Positions 1,712 through 9,611 of a stretch of DNA of 10,719 nt are shown one piece after another. This DNA comes from Pseudomonadota bacterium (GTDB lineage: Bacteria; Pseudomonadota; Alphaproteobacteria; Caulobacterales; Caulobacteraceae): positions 1 to 10,719 of the forward strand of contig JAEXJH010000441.1 of assembly GCA_023445955.1 (NCBI GenBank), in the 5' to 3' direction. Each line of letters starts with the position of its first letter. The first letter of the stretch is position 1. Both the position numbers and the translations under genes were made by a program. The notes below the pieces were generated by a model. The model worked only from the letters and a program-made list of their open reading frames with translations, had not been told where the DNA came from and searched no databases.

Positions 1712-4381
<2,670 letters not shown>

Positions 4382-4387
4382 AGTCGC

Positions 4388-5464
4388 TTAGGCCAATTCG
4401 AACGGTTCGAGGCCCGCCAGGCGCATGGCCTTGGGACGCTCGGGGATCTGACGAGGGGTCACGCCGCGCACTTCATCGGCGACGTGACGGATGTGATCCG
4501 GCGTGGTGCCGCAGCAGCCGCCCAGGATGTTGACGAGGCCGTCCTTGGCCCACTCGTGCAAGGCGTGGCCGGTCTCGTGCGGCTCCTCGTCGTACTGACC
4601 CATGGCGTTGGGCAGGCCGGCATTGGGATAGGCCGCGACCAGGGTGTCGGCGATGCGGGCCATCTCGGCGATGTGCGGGCGCATCAAGTCAGCGCCCAGG
4701 GCGCAGTTGAAGCCTACCGCGAACGGCTTGCAGTGCTTGACGCTGTTCCAGAACGCCTCGGCCGTCTGGCCCGACAGGGTGCGGCCCGAGCGATCGGTGA
4801 TGGTGCCGCTAATCCAGATCGGCAGCTCCTCATGGCCCTCGTCGCGCAGGTCGAGGATGGCCTTGATCGCGGCCTTGCAATTCAGGGTGTCGGTGATGGT
4901 CTCGATCAGGAAGAGATCGACTCCGCCCTTGTACAGCGCGTCCACCTGCTGGCGGTACGCCTCGTACACCTGGTCGAAGGTCACCTTGCGCGCGCCAGGA
5001 TCGTTCACGTCGGACGACATCGACAGCATGACGTTCAGCGGCCCGATCGAGCCGGCGATGAACTTCGGCGAGGCGGGGTTCTCGGCGTTCCAGCGGTCGG
5101 CGACCGAGCGGCCGATCCTGGCGCCCTCGAAATTGATGTCCCAGACGTCCTGCTGGCCCAGGTGATAGTCGGCCTGGGCGATGGTGGTGCCCGAGAAGGT
5201 GTTGGTCTCGGAAATGTCGGCGCCAGCCGAGAAATAGGCGTCGTGCAGTTCGGCCACGAGATCCGGCCGGGTCAGGCACAGGATGTCGTTGTTGCCCTTC
5301 ATCTGGCCGTTGTAGTCGGCGAAGCGATCGGCGCGATAGTCGGCCTCGGTCAGGCCCTTCTTCTGGAACATCACGCCCCAGGAGCCGTCCAGGATCAGGA
5401 TCTTCTGCTTCGACGCGCCCTTGAGGGCGGCGACGCGGTTGGCGCGGATAGTCAGGTCGGTCAT
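4388..5464 (-). CDS. metH: Methionine synthase, N-terminal polypeptide (homocysteine S-methyltransferase domain)
   Basis: A 358-residue zinc-dependent homocysteine-binding barrel, equal to the first module of E. coli MetH. The zinc ligands are visible as GFNC (Cys254) and GGCCGTTP (Cys317, Cys318). Other family stretches are SAGADISETNTFSGT (79-93), GSIGPLN (138-144) and DLFLIETITDTLNCKAA (183-199). The usual glycine-rich LDGGMGT near the N-terminus reads LDGSWGV here (25-31). The protein ends in RLAGLEPFELA, which corresponds to the linker before the folate domain in single-chain MetH, so the break falls between domains and not inside one. It should work with the metH2 product as a two-part enzyme. 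The start ATG overlaps the stop of the metallo-beta-lactamase gene by 4 bases, with GGAG 7 bases upstream inside that gene. It could be mistaken for a stand-alone S-methylmethionine-type enzyme (MmuM), but the neighbour and the linker-like tail argue against that. Confidence 0.95.
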   Translation of the reverse strand: MTDLTIRANRVAALKGASKQKILILDGSWGVMFQKKGLTEADYRADRFADYNGQMKGNNDILCLTRPDLVAELHDAYFSAGADISETNTFSGTTIAQADYHLGQQDVWDINFEGARIGRSVADRWNAENPASPKFIAGSIGPLNVMLSMSSDVNDPGARKVTFDQVYEAYRQQVDALYKGGVDLFLIETITDTLNCKAAIKAILDLRDEGHEELPIWISGTITDRSGRTLSGQTAEAFWNSVKHCKPFAVGFNCALGADLMRPHIAEMARIADTLVAAYPNAGLPNAMGQYDEEPHETGHALHEWAKDGLVNILGGCCGTTPDHIRHVADEVRGVTPRQIPERPKAMRLAGLEPFELA

Positions 5465-6345
5465 CGCTTGGCTCCGGGAGCGGCGGCCTGCTGGCGCGCC
5501 AGTTCCTGGTTGAATCGGGTCTCATAGCCGTCGACGAGACGGCCCAGTTCGGTCGGATCGACGAAGGCGTTCGGATCGCCGCGCAGCTGCTTCTGGCGCT
5601 TGGCCAGCAGGTCGCCCTGCTCTTCGTGGCTGGGCAGCATCACGTCGGTCGGGATGGCGCGCATGGCCGCGAAGCTGGCGCGATAGTCGGCGACGATGTT
5701 GCGGTGCTCCTTGTTGCCGACCAGCTGGTTGCCGGCCACCGACAGCGAGCAGTTGAAGGTGACGTTCAGCGGACGGCCCTTCTCGGTCACCTGGGTCGTC
5801 CAGGTGGTGCAGCCGATCGAGTGGCCCGGCGTCAGGTGGGCGACTAGGGTCGTCTCGCCCAGCTTCAGCTTCTGGCCATCGCCGAAGGCCTTGTCGACCT
5901 TGACCGCCGGGAACGGCGTCGGGCCGTTGCTGTTGCCGCCAATGTGGTGGCCGGCCTCCAGCGCCGGCTCGTCCAGGCGCGAGGCCCACAGCTTGGCCTG
6001 GGGGATATCGGCCTTCAGCTGGGCGAAGCCGCCGGCGTGGTCGTAGTGGGCGTGGGTGTTGATCAGCACCTTCACGTCCGCCAGCTGGAAGCCCAACTGC
6101 TGGATGCTGCGCTCGATCAGCTTGCCGCCTTCCGCCGACGGGCCGCCATCCAGCAGGATGTGGCCCTCCGACGAGGTGATCAGCCAGACCGACAGGCCTT
6201 CGGAGCCGACATAGTAGATGTTGCCGACCACGCGGTACGGCTTGATCGGCCGAACCCAGTTGGCGTTGTCGTCGGCCGGGGCGGCGGTCTGGTGCGCGAC
6301 GGCCGGCGTGGCCAGCAGCGCCAGGGCGAGGATCAGGGCCTTCAT
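5461..6345 (-). CDS. Subclass B3 metallo-beta-lactamase family protein, exported
   Basis: A 294-residue protein with a signal peptide (residues 1-17, hydrophobic core ALILALALLATPAVA, likely cut after AVA), so probably periplasmic. The mature part has the metallo-beta-lactamase fold with the full B3 zinc set: HAHYDH (His98, His100, Asp102, His103), His175 in TPGHSIG and His240 in PSHEEQ. CSLSVAGNQLVGN (199-211) lines up with the Ser-bearing loop of B3 enzymes such as L1. The C-terminal FVDPTELGRLVD is common in this subclass. C. crescentus is known to carry the B3 enzyme CAU-1/Mbl1B; this may be its orthologue, but I could not align them. The gene lies between metF and metH with 4-base overlaps on both sides and has a strong GGAGG 7 bases before its ATG. 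Beta-lactam hydrolysis is likely from the family; a role linked to methionine metabolism, for example on a thiolactone or other ester, is only a guess from context. The residues after His240 (EEQGD) are unusually acidic. Confidence 0.9.
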   Translation of the reverse strand: MKALILALALLATPAVAHQTAAPADDNANWVRPIKPYRVVGNIYYVGSEGLSVWLITSSEGHILLDGGPSAEGGKLIERSIQQLGFQLADVKVLINTHAHYDHAGGFAQLKADIPQAKLWASRLDEPALEAGHHIGGNSNGPTPFPAVKVDKAFGDGQKLKLGETTLVAHLTPGHSIGCTTWTTQVTEKGRPLNVTFNCSLSVAGNQLVGNKEHRNIVADYRASFAAMRAIPTDVMLPSHEEQGDLLAKRQKQLRGDPNAFVDPTELGRLVDGYETRFNQELARQQAAAPGAKR

Positions 6346-7286
6346 GCGGCGGCCTCCGCCGGAGCCGGCGTCGTCTCGCGAATGCCCAGCACACGGCAGA
6401 TCGCATAGACCAGGTCAGCCCGGTTCAGGGTGTAGAAGTGGAAGTCCTCGAAGCCCTGCTCCTGCAGCTTGGCGCACATCTCGGCAGCGACCGAGCAGGC
6501 GATCAGGCGGCGGGTCTCGGCGTCGTGCTCGAGGCCGTCGAACAGGTTGCCCAGCCACGACGGGATCGCCGTCTGACAGGCGGCCGCCATCTTCTTCAGG
6601 CCCGCGAAGTTCGTGACCGGCATGATCCCCGGCACGATCGGAATGGTGATCCCGGCGGCGCGGACCTTGTCGACATAGCGCAGGAAGGCGTCGATATCGA
6701 AGAAGAACTGGCTGATGCCCAGCGTCGCGCCGGCGTCGACCTTCTGCTTCAGGACATCAATGTCGTGCTCCAGCGACGGGCTTTCCGGGTGCTTCTCCGG
6801 ATAGACGCCGACCAGCACCTCGAACGGCGCGATGCCGCGCAGGGCCTTGGTCAGCTCGGTGGCGTTGGCGTAGCCGTCCTCGCGCGGCACGTAGACGCCG
6901 CCGATCCCGCCCTCGCCCGGAGGCGGGTCGCCGCGCAGCGAGACGATGTGGCGAACGCCCGTCTCCCAGTATTCGCGGATCACCTCGTCGACCTCGTCAC
7001 GCGAGGCGCCGACGCAGGTCAGGTGGGCGGCGGGCTTGAGATTGGTCTCGTCCAGGATGCGCTTGACCGTGCGGTGCGTACGCTCACGCGTCGAGCCGCC
7101 GGCGCCGTAGGTCACCGAGACGAAGGCCGGGTCCAGCGGAGCCAGGCGGGTGATGGCCTGCCACAGGCTCTCCTCCATCGCCGGGGTCTTGGGCGGGAAG
7201 AACTCGAACGAAACGCGGGGACGATAGGTGCGCTCGCCGGCGCGGGCGACGGGACCGATCACGCGGCGGGTAGGCGGAAGGGTCAT
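6342..7286 (-). CDS. metF: Methylenetetrahydrofolate reductase
   Basis: A 314-residue cytosolic flavoenzyme that reduces 5,10-methylenetetrahydrofolate to 5-methyltetrahydrofolate, the methyl donor for MetH encoded downstream. Family landmarks in order: VSFEFFPPKT (25-34, catalytic Glu28), VSVTYGAGGSTRERT (56-70), HLTCVG (88-93), SLRGDPP (116-122, with the flavin/folate-contacting Asp120), VGVYPEKHPES (159-169), GATLGISQFFFD (186-197), PGIMPV (219-224) and FHFYTLNR (282-289). The length fits the bacterial MetF family (about 290-310), with a short extra N-terminus. The ATG shares ATGA with the stop of the ArsR-methyltransferase gene and has AGAGG about 8 bases upstream. The stop overlaps the next start in the same way, so it is co-translated within the methionine operon and presumably controlled by the palindrome at 8263-8286. 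Confidence 0.97.
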   Translation of the reverse strand: MTLPPTRRVIGPVARAGERTYRPRVSFEFFPPKTPAMEESLWQAITRLAPLDPAFVSVTYGAGGSTRERTHRTVKRILDETNLKPAAHLTCVGASRDEVDEVIREYWETGVRHIVSLRGDPPPGEGGIGGVYVPREDGYANATELTKALRGIAPFEVLVGVYPEKHPESPSLEHDIDVLKQKVDAGATLGISQFFFDIDAFLRYVDKVRAAGITIPIVPGIMPVTNFAGLKKMAAACQTAIPSWLGNLFDGLEHDAETRRLIACSVAAEMCAKLQEQGFEDFHFYTLNRADLVYAICRVLGIRETTPAPAEAAA

Positions 7287-8260
7287 GCGGCGTTCCTCTC
7301 GGCCAGCGCGGCGGCGGGGCGGCGGGCGGTCCAGATCTTGACGGTCAGCCCCTCGTCGGTGGCCGGCGGCAGGGCGATGTTGCTTTCCAGCGCCAGGCCC
7401 GCAGCCTGCAGCCAGGTGACGATCTCGACGTCATCGAAGCCCAGGCGGCGGTGCTGGTGCGCCTCGCGCAGGAACTCGTGGTCGTGCGGGGCGAAGTCGG
7501 CGATCAGCAGCAGGCCGCCGGGCGTGACCAGGCGCGCGGCCTCGGCCACGGCGTTGGCCGGATCGGTCAGGTAGTGCAGCACCTGGTGGACGGTGACCAG
7601 GTCGGCGCAGCCGCCCGGCAGGCCGGTGCGGAAGATGTCGCCGTGGCGCAGCTCGCAGCTGGAGAGACCCGCCTTGGTCACCTCGTCGCGGGCGATGTTA
7701 AGCATCTGCTGCGAGAGATCCAGGCCCAGGGCGTTGTTGGCGCGCTTGCCCAGCAGCGTTAGCATGCGGCCCGCGCCCGCGCCCAGGTCGACCAGCTCTG
7801 CGAACGGCCCCTCGCCGGTCGCGCGCAGGATCGCCGCCTCGACCTCGGCCTCATCGACATACAGCGAGCGGATCTCGTTCCAGCGCGCGGCGTTGCGGGC
7901 GAAATAGGCCTGGGCGTCGGTCGAGCGCTCGGCGCGCACGGCCGACAGCTTGTCGGCGTCCAGCCGCACGATCGGATCGGTGTCGTCGATCAGGTCCAGC
8001 GCCTGCTCCACGAGGAAGCGCCCAGGCGACTTGGCGGCTAGGCGGTAGAACACCCAGGCCCCGTCCGGAAAGCGCTCGACCAAGCCCGCTTCGGCCAGCA
8101 GCTTCAGGTGACGCGAGACGCGCGGCTGGCTCTGGTCCAGGATCCGGCACAGCTCCAGCACCGACAGCTCCTCTGCTGCCAGCAAGGCCAGCAGACGCAG
8201 GCGCGTCGACTCGCCGGCGGCGCGCAGCACTTCGACGACCTGTTCAGCGGTGAGCTTCAT
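7283..8260 (-). CDS. ArsR-family regulator fused to a SAM-dependent methyltransferase domain (SahR-like)
   Basis: A 325-residue fusion. Residues about 6-80 form an ArsR winged helix-turn-helix (ESTRLRLLALL 17-27; recognition helix SQPRVSRHLKLL 44-55; wing DGAWVFYRL 66-74). No cysteine metal site is evident in it. Residues about 115-310 form a class I methyltransferase: motif I DLGAGAGRML (158-167), acidic loop GLDLS (179-183), GDIF (207-210) and post-motif TPGG (246-249). ArsR regulators of methionine-cycle genes that sense S-adenosylhomocysteine (SahR) are known in Proteobacteria. This protein's position as first gene of a metF-metH operon fits that role, with the methyltransferase domain acting as ligand sensor; catalysis is not excluded. 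It probably regulates its own operon through the adjacent palindrome. No Shine-Dalgarno precedes the ATG, suggesting a leaderless message. Its stop overlaps metF by 4 bases. The domain assignment is strong; the ligand and targets are inferred. Confidence 0.9.
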   Translation of the reverse strand: MKLTAEQVVEVLRAAGESTRLRLLALLAAEELSVLELCRILDQSQPRVSRHLKLLAEAGLVERFPDGAWVFYRLAAKSPGRFLVEQALDLIDDTDPIVRLDADKLSAVRAERSTDAQAYFARNAARWNEIRSLYVDEAEVEAAILRATGEGPFAELVDLGAGAGRMLTLLGKRANNALGLDLSQQMLNIARDEVTKAGLSSCELRHGDIFRTGLPGGCADLVTVHQVLHYLTDPANAVAEAARLVTPGGLLLIADFAPHDHEFLREAHQHRRLGFDDVEIVTWLQAAGLALESNIALPPATDEGLTVKIWTARRPAAALAERNAA

Positions 8261-8262
8261 AG

Positions 8263-8286
8263 GGACATAAAGATATCTTTATGTCC
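8263..8286. promoter_or_regulatory. Perfect 24-bp palindrome, probable operator of the methionine operon
   Basis: The half-site GGACATAAAGAT (8263-8274) is followed at once by its exact reverse complement (8275-8286), with no spacer and no mismatch. The AT-rich core with central GATATC stands out in otherwise GC-rich DNA. It ends 2 bp upstream of the ArsR-methyltransferase start codon (8260). ArsR-type dimers bind such palindromes and usually repress from a promoter-overlapping site. No second copy was noticed elsewhere in the window. The repeat is directly visible; its recognition by the adjacent gene product is inference. Confidence 0.85.
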
Positions 8287-8296
8287 GATTTGGCAA
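8270..8296 (-). promoter_or_regulatory. Candidate promoter of the methionine operon, overlapping the operator
   Basis: On the minus strand TTGCCA (8296-8291) could serve as a -35 and TATCTT (8275-8270) as a -10, with a 15-base spacer (16 if the -35 is read one base earlier). Transcription would then begin around 8263-8260, at or next to the A of the start codon, giving a leaderless mRNA. The -10 lies wholly inside the palindrome, so a bound repressor would block RNA polymerase. The spacing is slightly short and the elements are imperfect. Confidence 0.4.
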
Positions 8297-8303
8297 GAGG
8301 ATA

Positions 8304-8681
8304 TTATGCCTCGCCGATGCCGGCCGCAGGCTCCCAAAGCTCGATTTTAACCCCTGCCGGGTCGATCAGCCAAGCGAAACGGCCCATGCCGTCTTCGTCC
8401 TGGCGGCCCGTCGGCTCGACGCCCTCGGCGGCGGCCTTGGCCAACACGCCGTCGATATCATCGACCACGAAATTGATCATGAACGGCGCCGTCGAGGGCG
8501 CGAAATACTGGCTGTCGGCGCCGAAAAGCGCCCAGTTGGTGGTCGCGGTGCGCGGCGACTTGAACACCGCCCCGCCCCACGAGTGGATTTCGAAGCCCAG
8601 CACCCGCGCGTACCAGTCGCGCACGGCGGCCGGACCCTCGGCCTTGTAGAACACCCCGCCCAGACCCAGCACCTTGGCCAT
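8304..8681 (-). CDS. VOC-superfamily (glyoxalase/bleomycin-resistance fold) protein
   Basis: A 125-residue protein with the paired beta-alpha-beta-beta-beta pattern of the vicinal oxygen chelate fold. The first half has LGGVFYKAEGPAAVRDWYARVLGFEI (7-32). The second has FMINFVVDDIDGVLAKAAAEGVEP (67-90) and ends in GRFAWLIDPAGVKIELWEP (100-118), where Glu114 is at the usual metal-ligand position. The first strand has no His or Glu at the expected ligand position, so the metal site may be altered. The ATG at 8681 is preferred because AGGGGA lies about 7 bases upstream; an in-frame start at 8708 would overlap the HxlR gene. Only 2 bases separate it from the HxlR stop, so the two form one transcript. 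The substrate is unknown; members include dioxygenases, glyoxalases and drug-binding proteins. Confidence 0.8.
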   Translation of the reverse strand: MAKVLGLGGVFYKAEGPAAVRDWYARVLGFEIHSWGGAVFKSPRTATTNWALFGADSQYFAPSTAPFMINFVVDDIDGVLAKAAAEGVEPTGRQDEDGMGRFAWLIDPAGVKIELWEPAAGIGEA

Positions 8682-8683
8682 CG

Positions 8684-9037
8684 CTAATCCCCTGTCGCGC
8701 TCGCCCAATCCTCAGACCACCTTAGCAGAGGCCACAGCGCGATGATCAAGTCCGCACCGCGCGGGCTGAGACGATAGCCGCCGTCGGCGGCCACGATGTC
8801 GGCGGCGCGCAGCTCGGACAGGCGCGTGTTCAGCGTCCCCGGCGGCAGCTCGGCCGCCGCCTGCAGGGCGCGAAAGGTCAGGACGCGGCCCTCACGCAGT
8901 TCCCAGACTATGCGCAACGCGCCGCGCCGGCCCAGCAGATCCAGCGCCGCCATGATCGGCTTGCCGCTCTCCGAGCCGCGAACGGCGCGCCCGGGCAAAG
9001 GCGCTTCATTTTTTGTAGCGTTGTCGGAATTTTCCAT
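8684..9037 (-). CDS. HxlR-family winged-helix transcriptional regulator
   Basis: A 117-residue protein (from the ATG at 9037) with the HxlR pattern: IMAALDLLGRRGALRIVWELREG (28-50), a helix-turn-helix in LTFRALQAAAELPPGTLNTRLSELRAADIV (53-82) and the wing GGYRLSPRGADLI (86-98). The cysteine that redox-sensing HxlR members carry just before this core is absent here (KPIM), so thiol sensing at that site is unlikely. An upstream in-frame ATG at 9070 would add 11 residues, including two cysteines, but would run into the divergent gene; neither start has a Shine-Dalgarno. It is followed 2 bases later by the VOC gene and is divergent from the CMD-family gene at 9069. A palindrome covers its start codon, which suggests autoregulation and control of the divergent gene. 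Confidence 0.8.
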   Translation of the reverse strand: MENSDNATKNEAPLPGRAVRGSESGKPIMAALDLLGRRGALRIVWELREGRVLTFRALQAAAELPPGTLNTRLSELRAADIVAADGGYRLSPRGADLIIALWPLLRWSEDWASATGD

Positions 9038-9055
9038 GTTACAAATTTTGTAGCA
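9037..9055. promoter_or_regulatory. Palindromic operator candidate between the HxlR and CMD genes
   Basis: TACAAA (9040-9045) and TTTGTA (9047-9052) are exact inverted copies around a single T. The symmetry extends outward to TG...CA at 9037/9038 and 9054/9055 with one mismatched pair (9039/9053). It overlaps the start codon of the HxlR gene at 9037 and ends 2 bp before the Shine-Dalgarno (AAGGAG, 9058-9063) of the divergent gene. A further copy of the half-site TTTTGTAGC occurs at 9011-9019, 35 bp from the matching copy at 9046-9054. HxlR proteins commonly bind such sites in divergent intergenic regions. Confidence 0.65.
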
Positions 9056-9068
9056 CGAAGGAGCCGCC

Positions 9069-9611
9069 ATGTCGCCGAGGATCGAACCCGCCAGAGCCCC
9101 CTACCCCGCCAGCGTCGCCCGCACGCTCGAACAGTTGAAGACGCCCGGTGACCAGCCGCTGTCGCTGTTCCGCACCTTGGCCCGCGACGAGCGTCTGTTT
9201 TCCCGCTTCACCGGCGGCGGCCTGCTGGACCCCGGCCATGTGACCCTGCGCGAGCGCGAGATCGTCATCCATCGCGTTTGCGCCCTCAACGGCGCGGCCT
9301 ATGAGTGGGGCGTCCACGCGGCGCTGTTCGCCGGCGCGGCCGGGCTCGACGCCGAGCAATTGACGGCCACGACCACGCCAGGCGTCGCGGCTTGCTGGAG
9401 CCCGCGCGAGGCGCTGCTGATCGGCTTCTGCGACGCGGTCAACGCCCGCGCCGACATCGACGACGCCCTGTGGGCGCGTCTGTCGGAAGCCTTCTCGGAA
9501 GAAGCCCGGATCGAACTGATGATGCTGGCCGGCTTCTACCGAACCGTCAGCCTGCTGGCGAACGGCCTGCGGCTGGAGCCGGAGGCGTTCGCCGCGCCGT
9601 TTCCGGCCTAG
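9069..9611 (+). CDS. Carboxymuconolactone-decarboxylase (CMD/AhpD-like) family protein
   Basis: A 180-residue, mostly helical protein with the CMD-family signature LREREIVIHRVCALNGAAYEWGVHAALF (60-87): Cys71, Glu79, Trp80 and His83. The AhpD CxxC redox pair is absent, so this is not a classical AhpD peroxidase reductant. It resembles the large group of uncharacterised CMD proteins of about 180-190 residues found beside oxidative-stress or aromatic-metabolism regulators. A conserved C-terminal helix (ARIELMMLAGFYRTVSLLANGL, 146-167) repeats the family's second helical hairpin. The ATG at 9069 has AAGGAG 5 bases upstream, a strong start. It is divergent from the HxlR regulator and probably its target. 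Its stop shares bases with the stop of the convergent dehydrogenase gene. The substrate is unknown. Confidence 0.85.
   Translation: MSPRIEPARAPYPASVARTLEQLKTPGDQPLSLFRTLARDERLFSRFTGGGLLDPGHVTLREREIVIHRVCALNGAAYEWGVHAALFAGAAGLDAEQLTATTTPGVAACWSPREALLIGFCDAVNARADIDDALWARLSEAFSEEARIELMMLAGFYRTVSLLANGLRLEPEAFAAPFPA
9608..9611. other. Shared CTAG: overlapping stop codons of convergent genes
   Basis: The palindromic CTAG gives the TAG stop of the plus-strand CMD gene (9609-9611) and, read on the other strand, the TAG stop of the dehydrogenase gene (9610-9608). The two genes therefore overlap tail to tail with no room for a terminator between them, so each transcript must run into antisense of the other. 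Confidence 0.9.

Follow-up and report, generated by a model that had tools for sequence, protein, structure and literature searches.

The perfect 24-bp palindrome at positions 8263-8286 of the window (the whole analysed stretch of 10,719 nucleotides from a member of the Caulobacteraceae) is very probably the binding site of the adjacent regulator, located on that regulator's own promoter. In the reading that we prefer, to which we assign a probability of around three in four, the palindrome is an operator that would be bound by the product of the adjacent gene, an ArsR repressor of the SahR type whose sensor domain is of the methyltransferase family. The operator would be located within the promoter of the operon sahR-metF-MBL-metH1-metH2, between the -35 element (CTTGCC) and the ATG, and transcription would start from the first base of the ATG or no more than ~3 nt from it, making the sahR mRNA leaderless or nearly so. 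The bound repressor would directly block RNA polymerase and, by analogy with SahR, SAH would release it and thereby turn on the regeneration of methionine. The start site, the binding, the repression and the role of SAH as effector are what we infer from the evidence below.

The palindrome (GGACATAAAGATATCTTTATGTCC) pairs in 12 of 12 arm positions with a loop of zero, belongs to neither strand in particular, contains a conserved 20-bp core at 8265-8284 and ends 2 bp before the sahR start codon (ATG, 8260-8258, minus strand); the minus-strand letters from 8297 down to 8255 read CTTGCCAAATCGGACATAAAGATATCTTTATGTCCCTATGAAG. The first-pass annotation had described a 24-bp palindrome without mismatch that stops 2 bp short of the ATG of an ArsR-methyltransferase gene, with a TATCTT inside the palindrome, and both descriptions agree with the letters and coordinates, the TATCTT being found at the palindrome centre. 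Within the window it is the sole even palindrome with an arm of at least 7, the runner-up having an arm of 6. An arm of at least 12 was encountered once in 300 first-order Markov sequences matched in composition (0.0033 per window), and the 20-bp core pattern gave 1 match in the window versus 0 in 200 shuffles.

The regulator gene (7283-8260, minus strand) encodes a sahR-like protein of 325 amino acids, with an ArsR/SmtB winged helix at around residues 9-77 and a SAM methyltransferase-family domain at around residues 140-290. The DNA-binding domain was recognized as of the ArsR family by NF033788 (76.9 bits, cut-off 55) and PF01022 (49.1 bits, cut-off 22). The C-terminal domain is of the class I methyltransferase family and matches PF08241, which makes it plausible that the regulator binds SAM or SAH. 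In the 55 solved structures listed, the best stretch spanned the ArsR or the methyltransferase part, never both. The assigned start is sound, as its frame offers no earlier start codon after a stop and the next in-frame GTG/TTG is located 30 nt downstream; the upstream VOC-family gene ends at 8304, leaving 43 bp between its end and the sahR ATG. On the same strand, sahR heads a series of genes that continues with metF (6342-7286; TIGR00676, 332.4 bits, cut-off 293.7), whose start overlaps the sahR stop by 4 bp, a subclass B3 metallo-beta-lactamase (MBL) gene of the blaCAU family (5461-6345; NF000427, 524.7 bits, cut-off 500), metH1, encoding the homocysteine S-methyltransferase part of methionine synthase (4388-5464; profile matches), and metH2, encoding the rest of the domains of the B12-dependent enzyme (1712-4381; profile matches). 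From sahR through metH1, consecutive genes overlap by 4 bp; metH2 begins 6 bp past metH1. Given its position between metF and metH1 in the operon, the expression of the MBL gene may track methionine-cycle metabolism; the words 'methionine' and 'metF' are absent from the main text of one paper on Mbl1b (PMC11980594).

A second dyad in the window deserves separate mention. At 9040-9052 an odd 13-bp dyad (TACAAA-T-TTTGTA; 0 matches in 200 shuffles) is separated by 2 bp from an ATG (9037, minus strand) in the frame of a small, helix-turn-helix-like gene, which occupies 8684-9070 by its longest frame, shows a weak match to PF12840 and is oriented divergently to its neighbour at 9069-9611. Here, too, an operator-like dyad abuts a regulator-like start.

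The operator is well conserved among relatives. An operator was scored when at least 10 of 12 arm positions and at least 8 of 10 pairs matched. By this rule the core ACATAAAGATATCTTTATGT, with small changes, was found upstream of sahR in 80 of the 80 named loci (Caulobacteraceae loci with 68-96% protein identity, being the best 80 of 397 related stretches), and in 42 of these best 80 of 397 it was perfect over 20 bp. Lack of conservation in related genomes was one of the findings that the first-pass annotation would have taken to refute its proposal; the proposal passed this check, as the operator was kept in all 80 named loci (best 80 of 397). As a separate observation, an MBL match was obtained in 50 of the 80 named loci (best 80 of 397), and in 46 of the 65 with at least 4.5 kb of downstream sequence the MBL gene directly followed metF.

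Allowing at most 3 mismatches, the genomes of 12 relatives yielded 46 operator sites in total (3-4 per genome), and a reversed control pattern yielded 1 match in total in the same 12 genomes. By coordinates, 12 of the 46 sites are at sahR and 34 elsewhere. The latter include, by script, 12 sites upstream of ahcY and 12 upstream of metK (one each per genome), and metE is preceded by a site in at least 6 of the 12 genomes (5 by script and L117 by reading). All in all, 29 of the 34 were assigned by script and L117 by reading, and the remaining four (L101, L108, L111 and L130) carry no gene assignment. The script names for ahcY, metK and metE rest on short sequence words taken to mark these genes. 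In an NCBIfam check of one example per gene, ahcY and metK scored above cut-off; the best match of the metE example was metE, below the full-length cut-off, this gene being cut by the locus end. The SahR core targets are represented in the window by sahR-metF-metH, and in each of the 12 relatives' genomes by ahcY and metK. As judged from their positions, the predicted sites at sahR, ahcY, metK and metE are those of the published SahR regulon and, together with the ArsR domain, they support the earlier suggestion of a SahR-type regulator of methionine genes. It is extremely improbable that the palindrome is bound by another regulator and that its placement beside sahR is incidental, considering that the sites stay with sahR, ahcY, metK and metE and that published SahR regulons share the core targets, and include metE in some genomes (PMC4239095). 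Autorepression is supported by the finding that in Ensifer the expression of sahR is highest in the sahR deletion (PMC8877191).

The position of the palindrome relative to the promoter differs between targets. Read by eye, a -35-like TTGC abuts the upstream edge of the palindrome at the metK sites, and at the ahcY and metE sites the palindrome lies immediately upstream of TTGC or TTGAC. Among the gene-assigned sites, the operator touches the start codon at sahR alone. For five metE loci (L103, L107, L114, L122 and L125) we observed, at around positions 1500-1520, a SahR-type palindrome immediately 5' of TTGAC, followed by a cobalamin riboswitch (RF00174, 103-112 bits, 5 of 5) and then metE, which in these loci is apparently under double control by SahR and B12.

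In the window, the palindrome fills the stretch between a conserved -35-like element and the ATG. This element (CTTGCC, 8292-8297, minus strand) reads TTGCCA from 8296 to 8291, and its first T (8296) precedes the A of the ATG (8260) by 36 nt. When the named loci (best 80 of 397) were aligned on the palindrome, CTTGAC/CTTGCC appeared around 21-22 nt before the centre with 0.76-1.62 bits, and the positions upstream of it carried at most 0.51 bits. Of the 192 loci with an operator, 128 had a TTG with at least 5 of 7 matches to CTTGACA at a distance of 17-26 nt upstream of the centre; the same search in two upstream control intervals recovered 9 and 12 of 192.

The comparison was extended to the order with a sample of 150 genomes, from which 148 sahR-like loci were examined (G085 gave no match and G090 a weak match only, so both are out; second matches in G051 and G160 were omitted). 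An operator according to the above rule was found in 112 of the 148. Another 36 lacked it, of which 20 by hand count keep the arms (at least 10 of 12) with a changed core. Within the 112, the ATG was located at most 19 nt from the centre in 54 and farther away in 32, and in 26 none was found by the script. Since a locus was scored for spacing only if its centre was preceded at 17-26 nt by a TTG/TTT and followed within 19 nt by an ATG, the range of possible spacings is limited. Within that range the distance from TTG to ATG was 35 (24 loci), 36 (47) or 37 (4) in the 75 scored named loci (best 80 of 397; a scored -35 was absent in the other 5), and 34-37 in 48 of the 49 scored order loci (of the 54 whose ATG is near, the other 5 had no scored -35). 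Seven order loci share a 90-nt context with a named locus; with these duplicates removed the distance was 34-37 in 116 of 117 loci and 35-36 in 102, and the -35-like element was exactly CTTGAC or CTTGCC in 83 and began with TTG in 115. In C. crescentus, 93% (1542/1666) of the RpoD motifs start at -34 to -37 from the mapped start (PMC4287350). Given the 36 nt observed in the window, the transcription start is expected at the first base of the ATG, give or take a few nt.

The sequence around the start codon is consistent with this expectation. No Shine-Dalgarno sequence was found within 25 nt before sahR. By eye, such a sequence could be recognized before metF (GAGAGGAA), the MBL gene (GGCGGAGG) and metH1 (GGAG), which within these 25 nt agrees with the first-pass account of its absence at sahR and its presence at the three genes; before metH2 nothing of the kind was seen by eye within 25 nt. 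AGGA, GGAG or GAGG occurred at -15 to -4 in 0 of 124 close loci, a count that is partly forced as the operator arm occupies that place, and in 8 of 33 other loci (32 order loci and L069). In C. crescentus 75.4% of the genes are without a Shine-Dalgarno sequence (PMC4117421). Pyrimidines occupy the positions -1 to -3 in 66-68 of the 75 scored named loci (among the best 80 of 397; 68 of 75 at -1), and in 41, 29 and 39 of the 49 order loci at -1, -2 and -3, respectively. With pyrimidines at these positions in the window as well, the A of the ATG is the natural purine start. Based on the spacing of the -35 and the pyrimidines, the predicted transcription start region is 8260-8263 (minus strand), comprising the first base of the ATG (8260) and the ~3 nt upstream of it. 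When the initial 101 nt of the predicted mRNA were folded, the first 12 nt were unpaired (overall z -0.63), an uninformative result. A leaderless or nearly leaderless sahR mRNA is the best, if unproven, reading of the sequence.

The first-pass annotation had designated TATCTT (8270-8275, minus strand; spacer 15) as the -10. It is the sole hexamer at spacers of 11 to 25 with an A at position 2 and a T at position 6, and it can be listed as a tentative candidate. Its spacer of 14-15 nt from the -35, and a consensus promoter scan that reported nothing there, make it a weak one. TATCTT is part of the Caulobacteraceae core, and in some distant lineages this core is replaced (e.g. by AAAGACATG or AAATCAATG) while the operator is still near the ATG and the geometry is kept. 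Considering the spacer, the scan and the distant cores, TATCTT is not established as the -10, and of the promoter proposed earlier it is the start at or near the ATG, as predicted by the -35-to-ATG spacing, that finds support.

If TATCTT were the true -10, a start at the usual spacing would precede the ATG by at least 2-3 nt. This would suit an arrangement with the same operator and regulator, in which transcription starts inside the right half of the palindrome and yields a short leader free of a Shine-Dalgarno sequence. The 32 of 148 order loci with an ATG more than 19 nt from the operator centre point in the same direction, as do 6 of the 117 scored loci (L230, L232, L234 and L236-L238), where a second in-frame ATG follows 15 nt later with a Shine-Dalgarno word, so that this lineage may be leadered. 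We nevertheless consider such a short leader unlikely for the window, as the distance of 35-36 nt from TTG to ATG fits a start at the ATG and the pyrimidines at -1 to -3 leave the A of the ATG as the nearest purine, both here and in most named loci (best 80 of 397).

A promoter farther upstream would produce a leadered mRNA in which the palindrome forms an RNA hairpin at the start codon. A promoter-like pair with 9 of 12 matches is indeed present at 8373-8344, inside the VOC gene, and a perfect palindrome could fold in RNA. However, a 9-of-12 site within 160 nt upstream of the centre was missing in 79 of the 80 named loci (best 80 of 397), by which the pair at 8373-8344 was ruled out, and the lone site that was found, in L034, differs in sequence. 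A zero-loop palindrome makes a poor hairpin, and at ahcY, where the -35-like element lies downstream of the palindrome, the palindrome would presumably stay outside the transcript. A search of the window with Rfam gave 0 matches at the gathering score and no SAM/SAH riboswitch family in the leader, and an RNA switch was ruled out on this basis. An upstream promoter combined with an RNA hairpin is therefore very unlikely.

The distance from the operator centre to the ATG is 13-19 nt and depends on the lineage: Caulobacter loci mostly have 14 nt, most Phenylobacterium-like loci 14-15 nt and the more distant lineages mostly 16 nt. The distance from TTG to the centre is mostly 22, 21 and 19-20, respectively. 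Across lineages the operator moves more than the total distance from TTG to ATG does. The two distances are correlated at -0.69 (124 loci, in which the 7 duplicates are included, as in all correlation tests before thinning). For 21 representatives (85% identity over the first ~60 residues) the correlation was -0.57, and 31 of 10000 shuffles were as tight; for 9 representatives (75% identity) the spacing test was not significant (981 of 10000 shuffles), and within the 80 named loci (best 80 of 397) the summed spacing was no tighter than its parts. The pattern is suggestive, short of proof, of selection on the promoter-to-ATG distance. A wider proposal, possible if somewhat short of probable, is that in Caulobacter's order selection holds the promoter-to-ATG distance of the autorepressor near 35-36 nt while the operator drifts between the two, and that leaders were acquired in some lineages. 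On this view leaderlessness would be a property that the circuit retains, by which the synthesis of the repressor is kept low or independent of ribosome recruitment, and not an accident of a short gap. Among the order loci with a distant ATG, 21 of 32 have a -35-like element 18-23 nt from the centre, and so the layout of an operator on the promoter seems to be broader than leaderlessness.

Some lineages showed arrangements of their own. In a Caulobacteraceae subgroup (L058, L063, L068 and L069) the arms ACATAAAGATAT and ATATCTTTATGT are 4 nt apart, two overlapping half-site arrangements are possible and the -35 is absent at the usual place. Phenylobacterium loci, L034, L039 and L040 among them, carry a direct repeat of the arm ACATAAAG over the -35 region (TTGACATAAAGACATAAAG...), which could represent a third half-site.

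A search of the open literature, judged by title, gave no paper linking SahR to leaderless mRNA, and for 'SahR' with 'Caulobacter' none about this regulator. Both regulator and operator belong to a known kind, and the switch is a well-conserved, ordinary one. The SahR passages of PMC4239095 describe a 20-bp palindromic motif, the presence of SahR in 4 of 4 Caulobacterales, and sahR, ahcY, metH, metH2, metF and metK as core targets. The present system is like this Proteobacteria regulon in its ArsR-type regulator, the 20-bp length and palindromic form of the motif and the predicted targets sahR, ahcY, metK, metF and metH; the same passages are silent on a leaderless start and on the geometry between operator and ATG. 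For that geometry the closest parallel is the acuR-acuI-dddL operon of Rhodobacter sphaeroides, which is leaderless with a 5'RACE start exactly at the AUG (PMC3017554). As (by prediction) in the present locus, an autorepressor is the first gene and an inverted-repeat operator covers the promoter; the -35 and -10 lie within 36 bp of the ATG, and the regulator is without a Shine-Dalgarno sequence, whereas the downstream genes have one. AcuR differs in belonging to the TetR family, in having acrylate as inducer and in its operator sequence, and its leaderless start was proven by experiment, whereas that of sahR is predicted from sequence (PMC3017554). Further leaderless regulators mentioned by the acuR authors are lambda cI and Tn1721 tetR. 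In C. crescentus, 375 leaderless mRNAs (9.6% of the CDSs) have a translation efficiency similar to that of others (PMC4117421); these form a genome-wide class, whereas the present case concerns one operon. With this class and the identical layout of acuR, the arrangement is commoner than the first-pass annotation had implied. What this analysis adds is the order-wide geometry of -35, operator and ATG; a chromosomal B3 metallo-beta-lactamase gene also comes under predicted methionine-cycle control. With operator, promoter, predicted start and start codon packed within ~40 bp, and with relatives that apparently have a leader, one autoregulated gene can be compared directly in its leaderless and its leadered form.
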